A stretch of 59,350 nt of DNA from Ignavibacteriaceae bacterium (GTDB taxonomy: Bacteria > Bacteroidota > Ignavibacteria > Ignavibacteriales > Ignavibacteriaceae), in NCBI GenBank assembly GCA_013360295.1, contig JABWCL010000038.1:1-59350 (forward strand). Reading direction: 5' to 3'. Below are positions 16,200 to 59,350 of this stretch, piece after piece (within the stretch, counting starts at the first letter, position 1; every line of letters starts with the position of its first letter). The notes beneath the pieces are model-generated. The model made no database searches. It saw nothing but the letters and a program-made list of their open reading frames with translations, and was not told the origin of the DNA. The translations under genes were made by a program, and so were the position numbers.

Positions 16200-17129
16200 A
16201 TGCAACCCAGACAAGCACAAAATAAAACCATAGAGATTATCGGATTTCCCGTAGACCTTGGCGCGGGGAGGCGCGGTGTTGATATGGGGCCTTCAGCATT
16301 AAGGATCGCGGGCCTCGATTCCAAACTTGCTGCCCTGGGTTATAACGTTATCGACCGTGGCGACCTGAAGATTAAAATAATGGAAGCCCAGAATATCGGG
16401 GACAGAAGATTAAAATATATGAGGGAAATCTTAAAAACTTCCGAAGTACTTGCCCACAAAGTTTTCGATACTCTTGAGAGGAATAACTTTCCGCTGATAA
16501 TAGGCGGAGATCATTCAATGGCACTGGGAGCGCTGGGGGGTATTTCCGCTCATTGTGTTAAAAACGATCTCACTCTGGGTGTAATTTGGATCGATGCCCA
16601 CGCTGATATGAATACCCACGAAACAACTCCCTCCGGCAATATTCACGGAATGCCCCTGGCTGCCGCGCTGGGATACGGATACGAAAAACTGACGAACTTT
16701 ATGGGTATCACACCAAAAGTAAAACCGCAAAATGTCGCTTTGATCGGGCTTCGGAGTATAGATCCCGGTGAAAGGCAATTACTTAAAGACCTTAAGATTC
16801 CCGCGTTCACTATGCCGGAGATTGATAAACTAGGTATTCACCGCATCATTTCGAAAATACTTAATCAGTTCAGGGAGAAAGTAGATCATATCCACGTAAG
16901 TTTTGATGTGGACAGTGTCGACCCAACTCTCGCTCCCGGAGTCGGTACCCCAATCCCGGGAGGTTTAAGTTACCGCGAGGCACACCTCCTTATGGAAAAC
17001 ATTGCGGAGTGCGGATGTATGTCATCGCTTGAAGTGGCTGAAGTCAATCCTATACTGGATAACAGGAACCAAAGCGCGGAATTTACCGTTGATCTGATCG
17101 CCTCAAGTATGGGGCAGAGGATCTTATGA
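16200..17129 (+). CDS. rocF: Arginase (ureohydrolase family)
   Basis: 309 residues. Hydrolyses L-arginine to ornithine and urea with a binuclear manganese centre. Metal ligands are all visible: H105 in GGDHSM, D132, H134 and D136 in WIDAHADMNT, D236 and D238 in SFDVDSVDP. The loop TTPSGNIHGMPLA is the arginase substrate loop, which argues for arginase over agmatinase or formimidoylglutamase. No urease or ornithine-pathway gene lies nearby. ATG at 16200 follows the A/T-rich upstream segment without a strong Shine-Dalgarno sequence, as is common in Bacteroidota. Its stop overlaps the next start by four bases (ATGA). Confidence 0.93.
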   Translation: MQPRQAQNKTIEIIGFPVDLGAGRRGVDMGPSALRIAGLDSKLAALGYNVIDRGDLKIKIMEAQNIGDRRLKYMREILKTSEVLAHKVFDTLERNNFPLIIGGDHSMALGALGGISAHCVKNDLTLGVIWIDAHADMNTHETTPSGNIHGMPLAAALGYGYEKLTNFMGITPKVKPQNVALIGLRSIDPGERQLLKDLKIPAFTMPEIDKLGIHRIISKILNQFREKVDHIHVSFDVDSVDPTLAPGVGTPIPGGLSYREAHLLMENIAECGCMSSLEVAEVNPILDNRNQSAEFTVDLIASSMGQRIL

Positions 17130-17638
17130 GCGTTCCTTCCAGGATAGTCCTCTATTCTGTCGCTTTTTTGGCAATAGCCGCGCTCGCCCGTTTCTTCGGA
17201 CTGACAGATATGACATTTAATTTAAGCCTTACGATAAGCCTTATCTTCTGCGGAATGGGAATATTTATTTTTTACTACGGTACGCATAAGACAACGCAGC
17301 TCTTTGTTTCGAGCCTGGTTTTCTTCGCGGGATTACTGATTTTTGTATTCGACAATTTTGTCCTCGATTCTTTTTCCGCCATCATACTACCGTCTGTATT
17401 ACTGATGCTTGGATTCAGTCTGCTGATCGTCTTTATTGAAGACACCAGGAAAGTAAAATTACTGATCCCCGCGGTGGTCTTCCTGCTCTTCCCCCTGATA
17501 ATTGCTTTATATAAGGGGACATTTGTCTTTGACGAGTTTTTCAGCGCAATAGGGGAGATACTCTCTCTTATCTGGGTGATGATCGCGCTGATAGGCCTGG
17601 TGTTGTTTTTTATTTATGCGACGGGGAAGAAGAATTAA
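17126..17638 (+). CDS. Small integral membrane protein, unknown function
   Basis: 170 residues made almost entirely of five to six hydrophobic helices (for example YSVAFLAIAALARFFGL, LIFCGMGIFIFYYGT, LLIPAVVFLLFPLIIALY, SLIWVMIALIGLVLFFIYAT). There are few charged residues and no motif that I recognise. It overlaps the arginase stop by four bases (ATGA), so it is translationally coupled to it, but nothing in the sequence shows an arginine or urea transport role. Its stop codon lies inside the first unit of a heptanucleotide repeat array. Confidence 0.75.
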   Translation: MSVPSRIVLYSVAFLAIAALARFFGLTDMTFNLSLTISLIFCGMGIFIFYYGTHKTTQLFVSSLVFFAGLLIFVFDNFVLDSFSAIILPSVLLMLGFSLLIVFIEDTRKVKLLIPAVVFLLFPLIIALYKGTFVFDEFFSAIGEILSLIWVMIALIGLVLFFIYATGKKN

Positions 17639-17700
17639 AAATTATGAATTAAGAATTGTAAACACAATATTAGTTAAAAGTTAAAAGTTAAGAGTTAAAA
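17633..17700 (+). repeat. Heptanucleotide repeat arrays
   Basis: Two arrays with a period of 7. At 17633-17660: AATTAAA, AATTATG, AATTAAG, AATTGTA. At 17673-17700: GTTAAAA, GTTAAAA, GTTAAGA, GTTAAAA. Between them lies TTGTAAACACAATA (17656-17669), which recurs next to the array at 36073. Confidence 0.8.
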
Positions 17701-17714
17701 TTAAAACATTGGCG

Positions 17715-17751
17715 CCTCCCATCTTTACACTTGTCCCATAGGGGAAGGGCG
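17715..17751 (+). repeat. Dispersed block C, copy 1
   Basis: A 37-base block reading CCTCCCAT, TTTACACTTGTCCCA, AGGGG and closely following bases. It recurs at 59263-59299 with about three differences. In both places it begins 82-86 bases after the start of a heptanucleotide array. Confidence 0.65.
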
Positions 17752-17754
17752 GTG

Positions 17755-17827
17755 CACTAATCCCGATACATCGGGACGTAGTGGGAGGCAGGGCGTTGCA
17801 CTGATCCCGATGCATCGGGACGAAGTG
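17755..17827. repeat. Pair of 29-bp palindromes
   Basis: Copies at 17755-17783 and 17799-17827, 44 bases apart, each with the shape CACT-RATCCCGAT-R-CATCGGGAC-G-W-AGTG. The inner ATCCCGATGCATCGGGA is nearly self-complementary, and outer CACT pairs with AGTG. They sit in a plus-strand intergenic region after the membrane protein gene and before the flavin reductase. Could be paired protein-binding sites or remnants of a palindromic element; no T tract marks a terminator. Confidence 0.7.
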
Positions 17828-17933
17828 AGAGATGATTATAGGAGAAGAAGTTATTATACAATTCAATGTTTAGTTACTAACATATTCTTAGTAAACTGTT
17901 AACAATAAAAAAGAAAATTCAAATCATCATTAT

Positions 17934-18500
17934 ATGAAAATAGCAATAATAACCGGATCGGTGCGGAATAACCGCGACGGAAGCCGGGTCGTAAAATTCA
18001 CAGAAAAAGTAGCGAAAGAGCGAGGGTGGAATGTTACCACTATTGACCCGTCCCGTTATGAACTTCCGCTGCTTCAGCAAATGTACAGAGATATGAAAGA
18101 GCCTGATGAGAAATTCAGGTTTATTCACGAGACTTTTGAAAATGCCGACGGCTTTATCATCGTAAGCGCAGAGTATAACCACAGTGTCCCCCCCGCGCTG
18201 AAAAACGTTCTCGATCATTTTCGCGAAGAATATTTCTTTAAGCCGAGCGCGATAATCTCATATTCATCCGGGCCTTTCGGGGGAGTAAGGGCAGTAGAAC
18301 ATATACGCTCCATTTGCAGCGAACTCAGAATGCCCTCCATTCCAACAGCTCTCTCAGTGTCACGGGTACACGACAGCATTGACGAAAATGGTAATTCCGT
18401 TAATGGCGACTATGAGAGAAGGAGTAAAAAATTCCTGGATGAGTTTCAGTGGTACCTCGAAGCCTTTAAGGTACAGAGGGAAAAGGGAAGACCTTATTAA
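17934..18500 (+). CDS. NADPH-dependent FMN reductase-like flavoprotein
   Basis: 188 residues with the flavodoxin-like fold of the NADPH-dependent FMN reductase family. The phosphate-binding loop near the N-terminus reads IITGSVRNNRDGSRV and the flavin-contacting segment reads SAEYNHSVPPALKNVLDH, followed by YSSGPFGGVRAVE. Such enzymes reduce free flavin, quinones or azo compounds in the cytosol; substrate choice cannot be told here. ATG at 17934 has no strong Shine-Dalgarno sequence. Single gene converging on the bacterioferritin-like gene. Confidence 0.9.
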   Translation: MKIAIITGSVRNNRDGSRVVKFTEKVAKERGWNVTTIDPSRYELPLLQQMYRDMKEPDEKFRFIHETFENADGFIIVSAEYNHSVPPALKNVLDHFREEYFFKPSAIISYSSGPFGGVRAVEHIRSICSELRMPSIPTALSVSRVHDSIDENGNSVNGDYERRSKKFLDEFQWYLEAFKVQREKGRPY

Positions 18501-19500: not shown

Positions 19501-20086
19501 AAAACATTTCGTTCCGCTGGAACTCTGATGTTTCCGGTCGGGTGCTTGCTGCTACTAATATGCCGTACCTACGGTACTTTTATCGTTTGCTGAATCAAGC
19601 GGTTTTTGTTAATATGGTCGAAAAGAATATCTTTGTTACCCCGTTTACCCATTGCAGCAGAATGGTTTCAACCATTTGCGGCCACGCATCTCCATCATTT
19701 ATTAATTCGTTGAAAAACAACCACACCCCCAAAACATTTCGTTCCGCTGGAACTCTGATATTTCCGGTCGGGTGCTTGCTGCTACTAATATGCCGTACCT
19801 ACGGTACTTTTATCATTTGTTTGAATCAAATAGTTCGTGTTAATATTGTCGAAAAGAATATCTTTGTCACCCCGTTTACCCATTGCAGCAGAATGGTTTC
19901 ATCCATTTGCGGCCACGCATATCCATCATTTATTAATTCGTTGCAAAACAACCACACCCCCAAAACATTTCGTTCCGCTGGAACTCTGATGTTTCCGGTC
20001 GGGTGCTTGCTACTACTAATATGCCGTACCTACGGTACTTTTATCGTTTGTTGAATCAAGCGGTTCTTGTTAATATGATCGAAAAG
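19501..20086 (+). repeat. Tandem 230-bp repeat, about 2.5 copies
   Basis: Unit 1 19501-19730 (230 bp), unit 2 19731-19961 (231 bp), unit 3 19962-20086 (125 bp, truncated). Copies differ at a few percent of positions. Each unit starts AAAACATTTCGTTCC and carries small palindromes: GTTCC-GCT-GGAAC, then CCGT-ACCT-ACGG, then ATGGTT-TC-AACCAT (perfect in unit 1, one mismatch in unit 2). An open frame runs through (19542-20054), but the one-base length change and lack of a ribosome binding site make it an unlikely gene. Confidence 0.9.
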
Positions 20087-20107
20087 ATTGTTCTATCCAC
20101 CATAATT

Positions 20108-33791: not shown

Positions 33792-36074
33792 ATGAATAAA
33801 ATTATCCTAATATTATTAGTTTTTACATCCCTTCTCAAGGCGAACCTTGAAAGGAACTTCGGAGTTATTACGGGCAAGATCACAGATGCCGCAACGGGTC
33901 AGCCCGTTCCGTTCGCAACCGTCACGCTTGTGGGCACTACCCTTGGCGCCGCCGCTGATGTGGACGGTAACTACCGCATAACAAACCTTGTGCCCGGTAC
34001 CTACCAGGTGAGGGCTACCGTTATCGGGTATAATACTATTACAAAAACAGACGTAGCAGTCAATAACAGTAAGCCGGCGCAGGTAGATTTCCAGCTTCAG
34101 CAGTTAACTATCGAACTTGAAGATGTGACAGTTACATCCAGCTATTTTTACCGTGCACCCACTGATCTGAACAGCGTGAAGAGCTTTGGGTATGAAGAGA
34201 TCAGAAGAGCGCCGGGCGGTTTTGAAGATGTAGTTCGCGCACTTTCGATACTGCCGGGAGTGGCACAGGTAGACGCGGGAAGGAATGACCTTATAGTTCG
34301 TGGCGGTGCCCCTTCAGAAAATCTCTATGTCGTGGATGGTTTCGAGGTTCCGAACATTAACCATTTTGGAACACAGGGCGCTACGGGCGGACCGCTTAGC
34401 TTCATCAACCTCGATTACGTTAAAGAAACTTCATTCTCCACCGGAGGATTCCCGGTGCTTTACGGAGATAAGCTTTCCTCGGTTCTAAGAATAGATCTGC
34501 GTGACGGCCGTTCTGACAGGCTTGGCGGTAAAGCAGTTATTTCTGCTTCCCAGTTCGGGCTTAATCTCGAAGGTCCGGTAACATCCAACTCGAACTTTCT
34601 TTTTTCAGCCAGAAGAAGCTATCTCGATTTTATTTTTAAGGCTGCCGGTTTCGGATTCGTTCCTGAGTACTACGATGTATTGTCTAAGTTCAACTACGAT
34701 ATTGATAAAAAAACTCAGTTAAACTTTTTATTCGTCTCCGCGTTTGATAATGTGAAGTACTTTAATGATACTGATGACAAAAGACTTTCGAATTCGAGAG
34801 TACTCGGAAGCGACCAGGTTCAGTATCTTACCGGGCTGTCTTACAGGCAATTGTTTAACAAGGGGTTTTACAGGATATCCCTAAGCAGAAATTTTGTTGA
34901 TTATAATACCTCGCAGCGGGATTCCCTTCTGAACCCGATATTCCTTAATGAATCAAGGGAAGGCGAGAATAAACTTAAAGCTGAGGTTGTGTACCAGATC
35001 AATCCGGCGCTGGAAATTAACGCCGGCGGGGACGTTGAACATATCAAGTTCAAGTCCAATATTATTTTCCCGGCAAATTTTGTGACTACTTTCGGCGATA
35101 CATTGCCAATAAGCACAATTAACACAACGAATGTGTTTTTCAAGTATTCACTTTTCGGAAATCTTACTACTACCCTGATGAAGCGGATCATACTGAACAC
35201 CGGGGTGAGGATGGACTATTTCGACGCGATCAATGAGAAGTACTATCTCAGCCCGCGCGCGTCGTTGTCTTATATGTTTAACGAACTTACTTCGCTCAAC
35301 CTTAGCGGCGGAATGTACTATCAGTCACCGTCGTATATATGGCTTGCCGCGGGAGATTTCAACCGTAATCTTACCAAGATACGGGTTGATCAGTATATAG
35401 TTGGTTTAGATCACGTGCTGCGTGAGGATACAAGGATCAAGTTAGAAGCATTCTACAAAGACTACCGCGATTACCCGGCCAGTTTACTGCGCCCATACCT
35501 TGTCCTTGCCAATACTGGAGCAGGCTTTGCGGGTTCGGAAGATGGATTCTCCGCGTTTGGCCTTGAGCCGCTTGTAAATGCCGGAAAGGGATACTCAAGA
35601 GGAATTGAATTTTCCGCGCAGAAAAAACTTTCTGACATTCCGGTTTACGGAATCCTTAGCGCGACATATAACCAGACAAGGTTCACTGCAATTGACGGTA
35701 TCGAACGCCGCGGCAGTTATGATCAGAACTGGATATTCAATATCAGCGGCGGATACCAGATAACCGAGACACTCGAAGCGAGTATGAAGTTCAGGTATTC
35801 CACCGGCAGGCCTGTTACACCGTTCAATCCGGACGGTACACAGTCAGTATCTCTTTATAATACTCTGACACTTGATCCGCTTCATAGTCTTGACCTGCGT
35901 GTGGATAAAAAATGGTTCTTCGACAGGCTGACACTGATTACGTATCTGGACGTGCAGAATGTATACAACAGGCAGAACCTGAATACCTTGCGCTGGAACC
36001 CGAGGGAGAAGAAGGTTGAAGAGTCCGCGAATATCGGGATACTGCCGTCGATAGGCATTAGTCTTGAGTTTTAA
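33792..36074 (+). CDS. TonB-dependent outer-membrane receptor
   Basis: 760 residues. Signal peptide at the N-terminus (IILILLVFTSLLKA). Residues about 25-110 are a carboxypeptidase-regulatory-like/CarboxypepD_reg domain (GKITDAATGQPVPFATVTLV, then GNYRITNLVPGTYQVRATVI), usual in SusC-like receptors of this group. The plug follows (FEDVVRALSILPGVAQVDAG, NDLIVRGGAPSENLYVVDGF) and then a beta-barrel with many aromatic strands, ending ...GILPSIGISLEF with the terminal phenylalanine. It imports a ligand using TonB-ExbBD energy; no substrate-binding lipoprotein partner (SusD) is adjacent, so the ligand is open. The ATG at 33792 has no Shine-Dalgarno sequence, and the stop runs directly into a heptanucleotide array. 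Confidence 0.93.
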   Translation: MNKIILILLVFTSLLKANLERNFGVITGKITDAATGQPVPFATVTLVGTTLGAAADVDGNYRITNLVPGTYQVRATVIGYNTITKTDVAVNNSKPAQVDFQLQQLTIELEDVTVTSSYFYRAPTDLNSVKSFGYEEIRRAPGGFEDVVRALSILPGVAQVDAGRNDLIVRGGAPSENLYVVDGFEVPNINHFGTQGATGGPLSFINLDYVKETSFSTGGFPVLYGDKLSSVLRIDLRDGRSDRLGGKAVISASQFGLNLEGPVTSNSNFLFSARRSYLDFIFKAAGFGFVPEYYDVLSKFNYDIDKKTQLNFLFVSAFDNVKYFNDTDDKRLSNSRVLGSDQVQYLTGLSYRQLFNKGFYRISLSRNFVDYNTSQRDSLLNPIFLNESREGENKLKAEVVYQINPALEINAGGDVEHIKFKSNIIFPANFVTTFGDTLPISTINTTNVFFKYSLFGNLTTTLMKRIILNTGVRMDYFDAINEKYYLSPRASLSYMFNELTSLNLSGGMYYQSPSYIWLAAGDFNRNLTKIRVDQYIVGLDHVLREDTRIKLEAFYKDYRDYPASLLRPYLVLANTGAGFAGSEDGFSAFGLEPLVNAGKGYSRGIEFSAQKKLSDIPVYGILSATYNQTRFTAIDGIERRGSYDQNWIFNISGGYQITETLEASMKFRYSTGRPVTPFNPDGTQSVSLYNTLTLDPLHSLDLRVDKKWFFDRLTLITYLDVQNVYNRQNLNTLRWNPREKKVEESANIGILPSIGISLEF

Positions 36075-36107
36075 TTAAGAATTAAAAATTAAGAATTAAG
36101 AATTAAA
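36073..36107 (+). repeat. Five-copy heptanucleotide array
   Basis: Exactly five units, 35 bp: AATTAAG, AATTAAA, AATTAAG, AATTAAG, AATTAAA. The first two bases belong to the stop codon of the TonB receptor. TTGTAAACACAATA (36110-36123) follows, as at 17656-17669. Compare the array at 59177, which differs in a single base. Confidence 0.92.
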
Positions 36108-36171
36108 ATTTGTAAACACAATAAAATTTAAAGTTACACGGGGCTGTCCAAAATGTAAAATTTATTATCAG

Positions 36172-36215
36172 CGAAATTTAAAAGGGCAGAGGTCATCAAT
36201 TGACCTTTGCCCTTT
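36172..36215 (-). terminator. Hairpin terminator of IS transposase
   Basis: A 15-base stem with one G-T pair: AAAGGGCAGAGGTCA (36181-36195) and TGACCTTTGCCCTTT (36201-36215), five-base loop. On the minus strand a T/A-rich tail follows. It starts six bases beyond the transposase stop and may also block read-in from the plus strand. Confidence 0.8.
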
Positions 36216-36220
36216 GAGTA

Positions 36221-37846
36221 TTATGTAAACTCATTTTCTGCAAGTGCAACTATTGTGATTTCTGTCTCCACCTTCTTCAACCCTCTTAAATGCACTCTCC
36301 TGAACGCCATATTATGCTTTATATCCCCATTAAACGTCTCCGGTTCCGTGTTTCGTCGCTTTCGCAAATCAATTCCTAGTTCACTATTTAGATTCTCCCT
36401 TGCCTGTTGCTTATACCTTTCCAATTCTGGACGAATCGTGATCGTTCGATTACCTTTTCCCGTTTTGCATTTATCAGCAATTGGACAATTCGCGCAGTCC
36501 TTTGACCGATATGTTCGCTTCTTTGTCTCATATCCCAATTTCGTTATAAATGCCTCCTCTCTCTCAAAACCCAAAACTCTGTTTTGTGTGCAATAATACT
36601 CATCTTTCTCTTCATCATAACGGAAGTTCTCTCTCTTCGACGGATCCTCCTTGAACTTCTTTCTGCTCTCATTGTAGAAACTGCTGAACTTTAAATAGTT
36701 CTCTATTTCATTCTCTTCTAGAAATTGATAATTCTCCTCCGATCCAAACCCGGAATCTCCCACCGATGCTTTCGGATAATACCCCATATTCTGATGATGC
36801 TTCTTCATATGATCTTTATACAATGCTGAATCAGATGGATTTTGTCCAGCACTAATCATTGTAACATACTGATCCGATGTGCTTACTATAGCATTATATG
36901 TCGGCAGCGTCCGTCCATCCTTCCATCTGTGGATTGCAGCATCTGTGTCTGTCCTTGAATATCCGCTCCTGTCACCCGCTATCCCTTCCTGCTGTTCATA
37001 TTTATCTATCTTTGGGAGTTCCTTCCCAACTATCGTTTTGATTCTTCGTTCATTCCTTTTGTTTGCCTTCTTTTGCTCTGGACTTTCTGTGCCTTCTTCT
37101 CTCTGTCTCTGAATTTCCTCCCTCATCTCTTCCAATCGCTTGCGTATCTTTTCCTTGTCAATCTTTTTCCCTTCTCCAACTTCTTCCAGATCTTTATCGC
37201 CATATATCTTGTCTTCAGTTTCTTGTTCCTTATCTATTTCTTTTAGCAGTTCTCTTATTCGATTCTCTGCATTCCCCTTGAACTTTGCAGCGTTCTTCTT
37301 CCAGACCACCTTATGTCGGTTGGCATCTGCTAGTATTTTTGTGCCGTCTGTAAAATATACTTCCGTCCTTATGTATCCCTCTTCGATCAGCAACTGTATT
37401 GTTTTTGTGAATATCTTCTCAATTACTTCTTTCAACCTTCCGCTGCGAAAGTTCGCTATTGTTCTGAAGTTTGGTGTGCTCCTGCCGCTAATCCACATAA
37501 TCGATATGTTTCCTCTGCATGCTTGAGCCATCTTTCTCGATGTGTATATCTTTTTTGCATAGCATCCAAGGATGATCTTCAACATTATCTCTGGATCGTA
37601 GGCGCTTGTGCCGCCTCCTTGATAACTTTCGTACATCTCCTTATTATCTATTTGCTTAATTACTGCGTTTATGTATCTAACTACATCTCCTTCTCCGATA
37701 ATTGAATCTAATGTGTCTGGGAATAGTACGGGTGTATCTAAGACTGCCTCCTTGAATACTGGTTTCATTTTCCTACGAGGTTTTCGCTGTCGCATCTTCC
37801 CGTATTCTTCTCCAAAGATTGTTTCGTTGGTTTTCTTTTCTTGCAT
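36221..37846 (-). CDS. IS1182-family transposase
   Basis: 541 residues. N-terminal DUF772-like region (MYESYQGGGTSAYDPEIMLKI is shared with IS1182/IS5 transposases), then the DDE catalytic core: first aspartate in EVYFTDGTKILADANRHK, second in KASVGDSGFGSEENYQFLEE, and the glutamate in RRNTEPETFNGDIKHN. A Cys-rich patch, DCANCPIADKC, lies between. A charged insertion, rich in K/E/R around 200-275, is also typical. It cuts and pastes the element that carries it. The frame is intact. Confidence 0.95.
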   Translation of the reverse strand: MQEKKTNETIFGEEYGKMRQRKPRRKMKPVFKEAVLDTPVLFPDTLDSIIGEGDVVRYINAVIKQIDNKEMYESYQGGGTSAYDPEIMLKIILGCYAKKIYTSRKMAQACRGNISIMWISGRSTPNFRTIANFRSGRLKEVIEKIFTKTIQLLIEEGYIRTEVYFTDGTKILADANRHKVVWKKNAAKFKGNAENRIRELLKEIDKEQETEDKIYGDKDLEEVGEGKKIDKEKIRKRLEEMREEIQRQREEGTESPEQKKANKRNERRIKTIVGKELPKIDKYEQQEGIAGDRSGYSRTDTDAAIHRWKDGRTLPTYNAIVSTSDQYVTMISAGQNPSDSALYKDHMKKHHQNMGYYPKASVGDSGFGSEENYQFLEENEIENYLKFSSFYNESRKKFKEDPSKRENFRYDEEKDEYYCTQNRVLGFEREEAFITKLGYETKKRTYRSKDCANCPIADKCKTGKGNRTITIRPELERYKQQARENLNSELGIDLRKRRNTEPETFNGDIKHNMAFRRVHLRGLKKVETEITIVALAENEFT

Positions 37847-37922
37847 TTGAGAATATTCTATTGTTTTTACACTATATACGCAATTTTTATGCCATCTTTC
37901 TTCTTACTTTTTGGACAGCCCC

Positions 37923-38277
37923 GAGGGGTTATTGTACCCGGATTGGTTTAACTAAATGCTTAATGGTACCCTCTGCCGGATTAAGAACTCATTCTTATTT
38001 CAACGGTGTGAAACCTGTTTCTGATGGTTTGATATTCACAAGTGTAGAGGAGGGGCTTGCTCCTCCTTAATGAATTAAAAATTAAGAATTCATCATTAAT
38101 TCAACATAGTTCTTGGATTTTCATTCCATTCCCGGCCTAGAAATAAACGGCCGTTGGCTTTCTTGCTATTTTTTTTGTCTTTTACCTCCCCGACTAATCC
38201 TGCCAGTACCGGCTCTATTTTTCCAACCGAAAGCATTATTTTACATTAAAGATTTAGATTCATTTCCCCAAATAGAT
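37923..38277. other. Intergenic region right of the IS, with heptad array
   Basis: No credible gene. Contains a G/C-rich hairpin near 38047-38068 (AGGAG, seven bases, CTCCT) and a short heptad tract at 38073-38101 (AATTAAA, AATTAAG, AATTCAT, CATTAAT). An in-frame extension of the downstream esterase to 38113 is possible but has no ribosome binding site and would mask the lipoprotein signal. Confidence 0.5.
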
Positions 38278-45330: not shown

Positions 45331-45393
45331 GCAGTTAGAAAAAATGCTTTGCGCAAGATGGAGATAATCTTAAGTTAAAGTTATAAGTTAAGA
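45331..45393 (+). repeat. Dispersed block B and imperfect heptads
   Basis: 45331-45370 matches 59211-59250 at about 30 of 40 bases without gaps; the core GYAGTTAGAAA and TGCGCAA are shared. It is followed at 45372-45393 by imperfect heptads (GTTAAA, GTTATAA, GTTAAGA). No gene is seen in the 238-base gap that contains it. Confidence 0.6.
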
Positions 45394-58948: not shown

Positions 58949-59173
58949 ATGAAAAAACTAAACATCTCATCACTCCTGATAATCTTTATCTTCCTGCAAA
59001 TTAATGCCCTCTCCGCAATCCGCTATGTGAAGGCAGGAAACCCTACGCCGTTAGCTCCTTACACAAGTTGGGCAACTGCGGCTGATAGCATCTGGAAAGC
59101 GCTAAGAGTATCTGTCAGCGGGGATACGGTGTTTGTGGGAAATGGCATTTACACAGAAACCGATACACTGTAA
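58949..59173 (+). pseudogene. Truncated start of a secreted beta-helix protein
   Basis: 74 residues: a signal peptide (LNISSLLIIFIFLQINALSA) followed by IRYVKAGNPTPLAPYTSWAT, then ADSIWKALRVSVSGDTVFVG, then NGIYTETDTL. This is the typical N-terminus of right-handed parallel beta-helix proteins (DUF1565-like), which in this group are usually several hundred residues long with a type IX sorting domain. The stop comes at once after the first turn and abuts a five-copy heptanucleotide array at 59177. The simplest reading is a gene whose 3' part was lost or displaced, not a short functional protein. Full-length continuation beyond the window edge is possible only if another frame resumes. Confidence 0.7.
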
Positions 59174-59176
59174 AAT

Positions 59177-59211
59177 AATTAAGAATTAAAAATTAAGAAT
59201 TAAGAATTAAG
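59177..59211 (+). repeat. Five-copy heptanucleotide array
   Basis: Exactly five units, 35 bp: AATTAAG, AATTAAA, AATTAAG, AATTAAG, AATTAAG. Differs from the array at 36073 in one base. Directly follows the truncated gene and is followed by block B (59211-59250) and block C (59263-59299). Confidence 0.92.
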
Positions 59212-59250
59212 TAGTTAGAAAGAATATTCTGCGCAAATTGGTTATAATTT
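59211..59250 (+). repeat. Dispersed block B, copy 2
   Basis: Ungapped match to 45331-45370 at about 30 of 40 positions, most differences being transitions. Here it directly follows a heptad array; at 45331 it precedes one. Confidence 0.6.
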
Positions 59251-59262
59251 ACAATAAAATCT

Positions 59263-59299
59263 CCTCCCATTTTTACACTTGTCCCACAGGGGAAAGGGG
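59263..59299 (+). repeat. Dispersed block C, copy 2
   Basis: Matches 17715-17751 (CCTCCCAT, TTTACACTTGTCCCA, AGGGGAA). Starts 86 bases after the start of a heptad array, against 82 bases at copy 1. Confidence 0.65.
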
Positions 59300-59350
59300 A
59301 GGCCGGGAGGGGTTATCGAAACAAATATTAAGCAATCACTTATGGTACCG

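Follow-up and report, generated by a model that had tools for sequence, protein, structure and literature searches.

Short hairpin-ended elements, probably mobile, and their association with heptad arrays in an Ignavibacteriaceae genome

Results and discussion

The genome of this Ignavibacteriaceae bacterium harbors a family of short elements with two conserved ends, and the view that this end-defined family is mobile is well supported. Its ends, and not its interior, define the family. The elements are probably non-autonomous and similar to the PATEs of Haloquadratum, moved in trans by a HUH/Y1-type enzyme and using arrays of AATTAAG-type heptads as landing sites. For their movement a HUH/Y1 mechanism, with a putative enzyme, is the likeliest but unproven. 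A trans-acting single-strand transposase of this type would read the two end hairpins and would insert the elements 3' of TTANN. The arrays, which would gather just after stop codons, would serve as landing sites, since TTAAG recurs in them at 7-base intervals and on a single strand. This would explain the constant relative orientation of element and array. In this manner a puzzling intergenic repeat, from bacteria known mostly through metagenomes, becomes a mobile-element family that can be tested, with defined ends and with a target rule and a landing site proposed for it. It provides a bacterial case resembling Haloquadratum, with tiny palindromes inside palindrome-ended elements, and raises the question of which enzyme sustains the elements across genera, no examined Y1 gene carrying the ends.

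Genomes and searches

The window is the whole stretch of DNA analyzed (59,350 nucleotides), which is all of contig C2 of a genome of 4.46 Mb in 92 contigs (G000). Elements were found in five genomes: G000, a sister species of the same genus (G001), two genomes of genus g8 (G008 and G096) and one of genus g22 (G022). Block C was counted throughout G000 with the query TTTACACTTGTCCCA (<=2 mismatches), which gave 27 matches, the reversed control giving 15; 22 of the 27 were accepted as real copies by flank alignment, and L013, L022, L023, L024 and L027 were dropped. The left end (LE) can be described by the pattern TAGTTAG[AT]AAAAATATTCTGCGCAAA and the right end (RE) by GGTNCYGGCNNNGCYRGNTTATG. 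LE sites were counted by coordinate, giving 22 in G000 and 49 in the five genomes, a count that misses two C3 copies carrying a one-base LE deletion. The genome-wide heptad pattern is nearly symmetric, so that its reversed control tells little; exact matches to it are referred to as exact arrays (37). Matches to the E1 model in G000 and G001 were kept at E<=0.01.

Copies in the window

The features of the window are listed in Table 1. The sequence-only reading had described two copies of one composite, in which a heptad array is followed by a spacer and a fixed 37-bp block, here called block C. Both copies are where it had placed them, and the distances from array start to block C of 82 bases (17633 to 17715) and 86 bases (59177 to 59263) were reproduced. 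More order is present than expected by chance: block C has two matches in the window (<=3 mismatches) and none in 100 shuffles, and AATTAAGAATTAA (<=1 mismatch) has 17 matches against 0.46 expected. The array at 36073 is indeed followed by TTGTAAACACAATA, also present at 17656, and the suspected interruption of this copy by an IS (~36139-37923) was confirmed by the tail GAGGGGTTAT and a right-end-like sequence just past it (37923-37985). No family name had been recognized, and Rfam gave 0 matches above gathering score in the window. The idea of a single fixed composite was rejected, since the spacers differ, the left parts of the 17633 and 59177 copies are not the same, only the heptads and the hairpin are common to both, and the genome-wide distance from array to block C varies from 49 to 139.

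Table 1. Features of the element family and their neighbors in the window
Feature	Position	Strand	Remark
Upstream gene (170 aa) without a Pfam family	17126-17638	+	stop codon inside heptad array
Heptad array AATTAAA/AATTATG/AATTAAG	17633-17657	+	
TTGTAAACACAATA, alternative left part	17656-17669	+	common to 36110-36123 and G000:C31
Second heptad-type array (AGTTAAA)	17672-17706	+	
Block C: nested palindrome within central hairpin of left arm CCTCCCAT	17715-17744	+	
Nested 16-bp palindrome CTTGTCCCATAGGGGA	17730-17745	+	missing from base copies, e.g. G000:C92
REP-like hairpin unit R (CGGTGCACTAATCCCGATACATCGGGACGTAGTG)	17750-17783	+	
Second R unit (GCGTTGCACTGATCCCGATGCATCGGGACGAAGTG)	17793-17827	+	44 bases further on
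Heptad array	36073-36107	+	abuts stop codon of gene 33792-36074
TTGTAAACACAATA	36110-36123	+	as at 17656
IS inserted in composite	36139-37923	.	ends approximate; inverted ends CGGGGCTGTCCAAAA
DDE_Tnp_1_6/DUF772 transposase of the IS	36221-37846	-	
Hairpin tail GAGGGGTTATTG past IS	37923-37934	+	
Right-end-like GGTACCCTCTGCCGGATTAAG past IS	37965-37985	+	read by eye
Left end of element with another interior	45332-45379	+	E1 model 11.9 bits, E 0.006
74-aa ORF, no Pfam match	58949-59173	+	stops just short of array
Heptad array, 5 units, TTAAG last	59177-59211	+	directly before left end
E1 element	59212-59350	+	right end cut by contig end; E1 model 96.1 bits
Block C of 59177 copy	59263-59292	+	
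Nested 16-bp palindrome CTTGTCCCACAGGGGA	59278-59293	+	

The 17633 copy is a further composite that lacks both ends. It contains an array, the TTGTAAACACAATA left part, a second array, block C and two R units (17633-17827), and neither LE nor RE; 17654-17714 scores only 16.5 bits with the E1 model and has no right end, against 96.1 bits for 59212-59350. The product of the gene upstream of it is 79% identical to its G001 ortholog, and its C-terminus reads KKN* instead of the KKNGNL* of G001. The element with another interior starts at 45332, and no right end was found for it. The 74-aa ORF, its array and E1 form one of a pair of segmental near-copies (window 58949-59211 and L174, G000:C52), and the ORF of the C52 near-copy reads into its array. 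A 231-bp tandem repeat with 2.5 copies and 93% matches, unrelated to the element family, is present at 19501-20087.

The E1 element and its nested palindromes

E1 is a non-coding element of 139-142 bp. Its two ends are LE (TAGTTAGAAAAAATATTCTGCGC) and RE (GGTACCGGCTCYGCTGGTTTATG), with a G-rich hairpin at the center. The central hairpin reads CTCCTCCC(A/C)TTTTTACAAAGGGGAGG and is followed by CCGGGAGGGGTTATCGAAACA. The plainest copies are that of C92 in G000, with 139 bp, and three in G001, with 139-142 bp. A search with one copy listed matches at 51 places in G000 and 12 in G001, and the E1 model matched 36 and 17 places, respectively, as well as 13 more of 76 genomes of the family; outside the genus, most of the examined matches span the central hairpin only. 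Mean identity over shared alignment columns is 87% within G000, 75% within G001 and 67% between them.

Small palindromic pieces are present or absent at fixed points among the aligned E1 copies. Block C is one such case and has two layers: the central hairpin, which occurs by itself in other copies and in the sister species, and the 16-bp palindrome CTTGTCCCACAGGGGA lodged in its loop. R units (CGGTGCACTGA...CGAAGTG, with a variable middle) are inserted between AAAGG and GGAGG, in G001 as well. In the left part of E1, about 18 bases (AAAATCCCYCYGGGAATG) are present or absent. RNAalifold on 17 E1 copies returned the central hairpin only, with no compensatory pair. The central hairpin pattern was found in 3 of 146 genomes of the order, the third (G068) having other flanks. 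An exact 14-mer of block C was absent from the 40 relatives searched, and a longer block C pattern had no match in named genome contigs or viral contigs. In G001 the AAAGG site of a central hairpin is occupied by R-like units arranged in tandem, each about 27 bases long (L126, G001:C375).

Two conserved ends

The same ends surround other interiors. In G000, LE and RE enclose an unrelated interior, called E2, at C3:101934-102183 and C72:26273-26032, and in a third E2, at C72:183029, the right end is worn. In the g8 and g22 genomes the left end is TAGTTAG(T/C)AAAAATATTCTGCGCAAAATGGCAAGAATATT and the right end is GGTTCTGGCTTTGCCAGGTTATG or near it, with at least one right end per genome, again around other interiors. 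Elements measure 139-447 bp in G000 and 166-514 bp in g8/g22, too short for a transposase, and the longest stop-free stretch across 15 measured g8/g22 LE-RE spans is 78 aa. When LE and RE were compared by eye in G000, G001 and G008, no terminal inverted repeats were seen. Three left ends (L009, L016 and L141, in G000 C91, C73 and C3) follow a common longer repeat with CACGGAG units (ACACGGAGAACCACAGAGTTTACACGGAG).

Both ends of the g8/g22 elements fold, the left one with a 10-bp stem, an 8-base loop and one bulged base, and the right one with a 5-bp stem and a 3-base loop. All five RE pairs are intact at 29 of 37 sites. Among 28 distinct right ends, including four from G001, 86.4% of the cells are paired, against 10-50% in slid controls. 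Their covariation score was reached by 4 of 500 shuffles, and cells with both sides changed number 9 against 4.5 in shuffles (1/500); the pair count and the pair-type count are unremarkable, being reached by 205 and 232 of 500 shuffles. Covariation in LE is weak, its score being reached by 36 of 500 shuffles for 19 chosen left ends that are not representative of E1 (16 from g8/g22, one of the 22 in G000 and two of the six in G001). In E1 of G000 the LE hairpin is decayed, and its 3' arm is not conserved.

Insertion sites and empty sites

TTANN stands immediately left of LE at 34 of 49 sites, and 15 sites depart from it; per genome the counts are 14/22 in G000, 5/6 in G001, 13/18 in G008, 1/2 in G096 and 1/1 in G022. 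Half of the G000 sites (11/22) have TTAAG or TTATG at this position. AATTA lies right of RE at 22 of the 36 sites with a flank. RE terminates in TTATG or near it, and insertions in arrays read TTAAG, then LE to RE, then AATTA. No target duplication was visible by eye at four non-array sites (G000 C39:60122-60276 and C73:11236-11408; G001 C126 and C214), and in the 7-base arrays one would be masked.

The right junction of one E2 copy is the best evidence of movement for the end-defined elements. There, RE at C73:15141 abuts AATTAAGAATTTTTTGAGG, and at the paralogous loci C26 and C28 this same flank is preceded by an uninterrupted array.

Empty sites had been proposed as a check on the composites, and two composite sites are in fact empty in the same-genus species; both composites lack LE and RE, and these sites consequently record the gain or loss of an array-hairpin composite, not of E1. 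At the place of the 17633 composite in G001, the orthologous gene and an FMN reductase gene adjoin without array or block C. The second site follows a Dus gene in an operon compared between G000 and G001 (54% identical proteins, E 1.5e-73). The distance from this gene to its downstream neighbor is 12 bases in G001 against 379 in G000, with predicted gene starts, and the G000 gap holds an array and block C. A third candidate (L006) had just one flank matched in G001.

Search for an enzyme

Genes of the Y1_Tnp family were found in all five genomes (3 in G000, 3 in G001, 2 in G008, 9 in G096 and 3 in G022; 20 in total). Neither LE nor RE was found near any of the 20 within the flanks fetched, several of these genes being near contig ends, and no LE-RE pair was present at 30 further family loci. 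The three G000 genes are RAYT-like (L028, L029 and L030, in C83, C25 and C7), a label taken from reading their sequences, and each is beside its own palindromic repeats, e.g. GCACTTTAGTAAAGTGC with TGGGAGG, and GCAGGTCGTGACCTGC. A link of the elements to these three genes was rejected, as neither R nor LE nor RE flanks any of them; one R unit is about 1.8 kb from one of them, within another central-hairpin copy. We do not assign the elements to IS200/IS605, since we found no copy that combines these ends with a Y1 gene. In another genome, a Y1 gene (L233, G007:C1) is accompanied by tandem hairpins ACCCGCTCCGCGGGT followed by TTTAGG, whose shape resembles the right end.

The lack of these ends at all 20 Y1 genes would also suit MITE-like elements moved by a transposase outside the HUH/Y1 group, such as a DDE enzyme or a recombinase, with incidental hairpins. 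G000 does have DDE transposases, one of them in the window, and the LE hairpin is decayed in E1. We regard this alternative as doubtful, because inspection of LE and RE revealed no terminal inverted repeats, no duplication was seen by eye at the four non-array sites, and the RE hairpin covaries. The elements also differ from a DDE-type MITE in that the ends of the IS in the window are unrelated to LE and RE. In a bolder proposal, which we consider unlikely, arrays and LE/RE elements would belong to one system, in which a single enzyme, not of the known Y1 type, would both create AATTAAG arrays at gene 3' ends and insert hairpin-ended, gene-free cargo into these arrays; smaller palindromes would in turn target the cargo. 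This would be a three-level parasitic nest, spread across genera without an autonomous member.

Heptad arrays

The association of arrays with the hairpin and their common orientation are real, and the spacing is not fixed. Of the 20 block C copies that could be assessed, two of the 22 being cut by contig ends, 9 have a same-strand heptad array in the 170 bases upstream; reversed arrays numbered 0. As background, 0.57% of the window's 170-base tiles contain such an array. No heptad array was found in the upstream 170 bases of the other 11. The order suggested by the sequence-only reading therefore holds across the genome as an association in one orientation, and its regular spacing does not (49-139). 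Heptads and block C do also occur apart, as independent repeats would, although a preferred association exists. Matches to the heptad pattern (188 in G000, overlapping) far exceed those of block C, and the pattern has 74 matches in G001 and 0-6 in 23 other genomes. LE stands directly beside an AATTAAG-type array at 10 of the 22 G000 sites, and beside a reversed array at none.

The location of so many modules inside arrays (these 10 of 22 left ends) would agree with a process without transposition, in which arrays recombine or slip and gene conversion carries the blocks as passengers of the repeats. The shuffling of modules between partners and the segmental duplication of the 74-aa ORF with its array and E1 (window, C52) point the same way. 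We find this account rather improbable, given the sharp LE and RE boundaries at array-free sites, including 5 of 6 in G001, and the same ends around different interiors in other genera.

Arrays and elements are frequent just after genes. For 17 of the 37 exact arrays the start is no more than 20 bases from a stop codon on the same strand, and 12 of 22 block C copies follow the stop of a gene on their strand at a distance of 57-138 bases. Read from the sequence, heptads contain stop codons in every frame, so that the array often supplies the stop of a gene. A host 3'-UTR regulatory element under selection (terminator, mRNA stabilizer or G-quadruplex site) would account for these positions and for the conserved G-rich hairpin with a G4-like run at 59289, but is very unlikely, as there is no terminator-like site at 17500-18050, the central hairpin has no compensatory change, the sites are not shared with the sister species G001, and nested palindromes disrupt the hairpin in many copies. 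In G000:C83:158150-158365 (L026), a phage portal gene of the Mu type (346 aa; profile match 2-301 of 336) is ended early by an array, which is followed by E1.

Comparison with known systems

In structure the elements are closest to the PATEs, the palindrome-associated transposable elements of Haloquadratum walsbyi (PMC3119063). Like PATEs, they have no terminal inverted repeats, are too short for a transposase and have variable cores. PATEs also show no visible target duplication; here none was seen by eye at the four non-array sites. Near-terminal palindromes as in PATEs are present here in RE and in the g8/g22 LE, and not in the G000 E1 LE (PMC3119063). Smaller mobile repeats are lodged inside in both cases, within the palindromes in PATEs (PMC3119063). 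The elements differ from PATEs in that their ends are as yet not tied to an IS605-type transposon, that 7-base arrays are a common landing site and that the LE palindrome has decayed in the species of the window.

IS200/IS605 elements have hairpins at both ends, insert 3' of a tetra- or pentanucleotide and show neither inverted repeats nor duplication; their left-end hairpin has a 10-bp stem and an 8-base loop (PMC7290912). The lack of inverted repeats is shared with our elements, as are hairpin ends, clearly so in g8/g22, where the LE hairpin has the same sizes plus one bulged base. Insertion 3' of a short motif would also fit, TTANN preceding 34 of 49 LE sites. No tnpA, tnpB or other enzyme was present in copies with these ends at the loci examined. 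The R units are similar to REP sequences with RAYT (TnpA-REP) enzymes, the subject of PMC2817692, PMC3116915 and PMC8266576, being extragenic palindromes that are sometimes in tandem (17750-17827 and the G001:C375 array). Unlike in REP/RAYT systems, no RAYT-like gene of G000 is flanked by R units.

A literature search combining Ignavibacteria and repeats returned nothing on point; we do not assert more widely that the family is absent from the literature. Cyanobacteria are said (Elhai and others) to have very small palindromic mobile repeats in and beside heptameric tandem arrays. The tiny palindromes in or beside tandem heptamers described here are similar, in another sequence and another phylum.

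The family also bears on assembly, since several copies lie at contig ends (the window; L005, L009, L014 and L019; C10, C21, C39, C47, C69 and C92), where the repeats seem to break the assembly.
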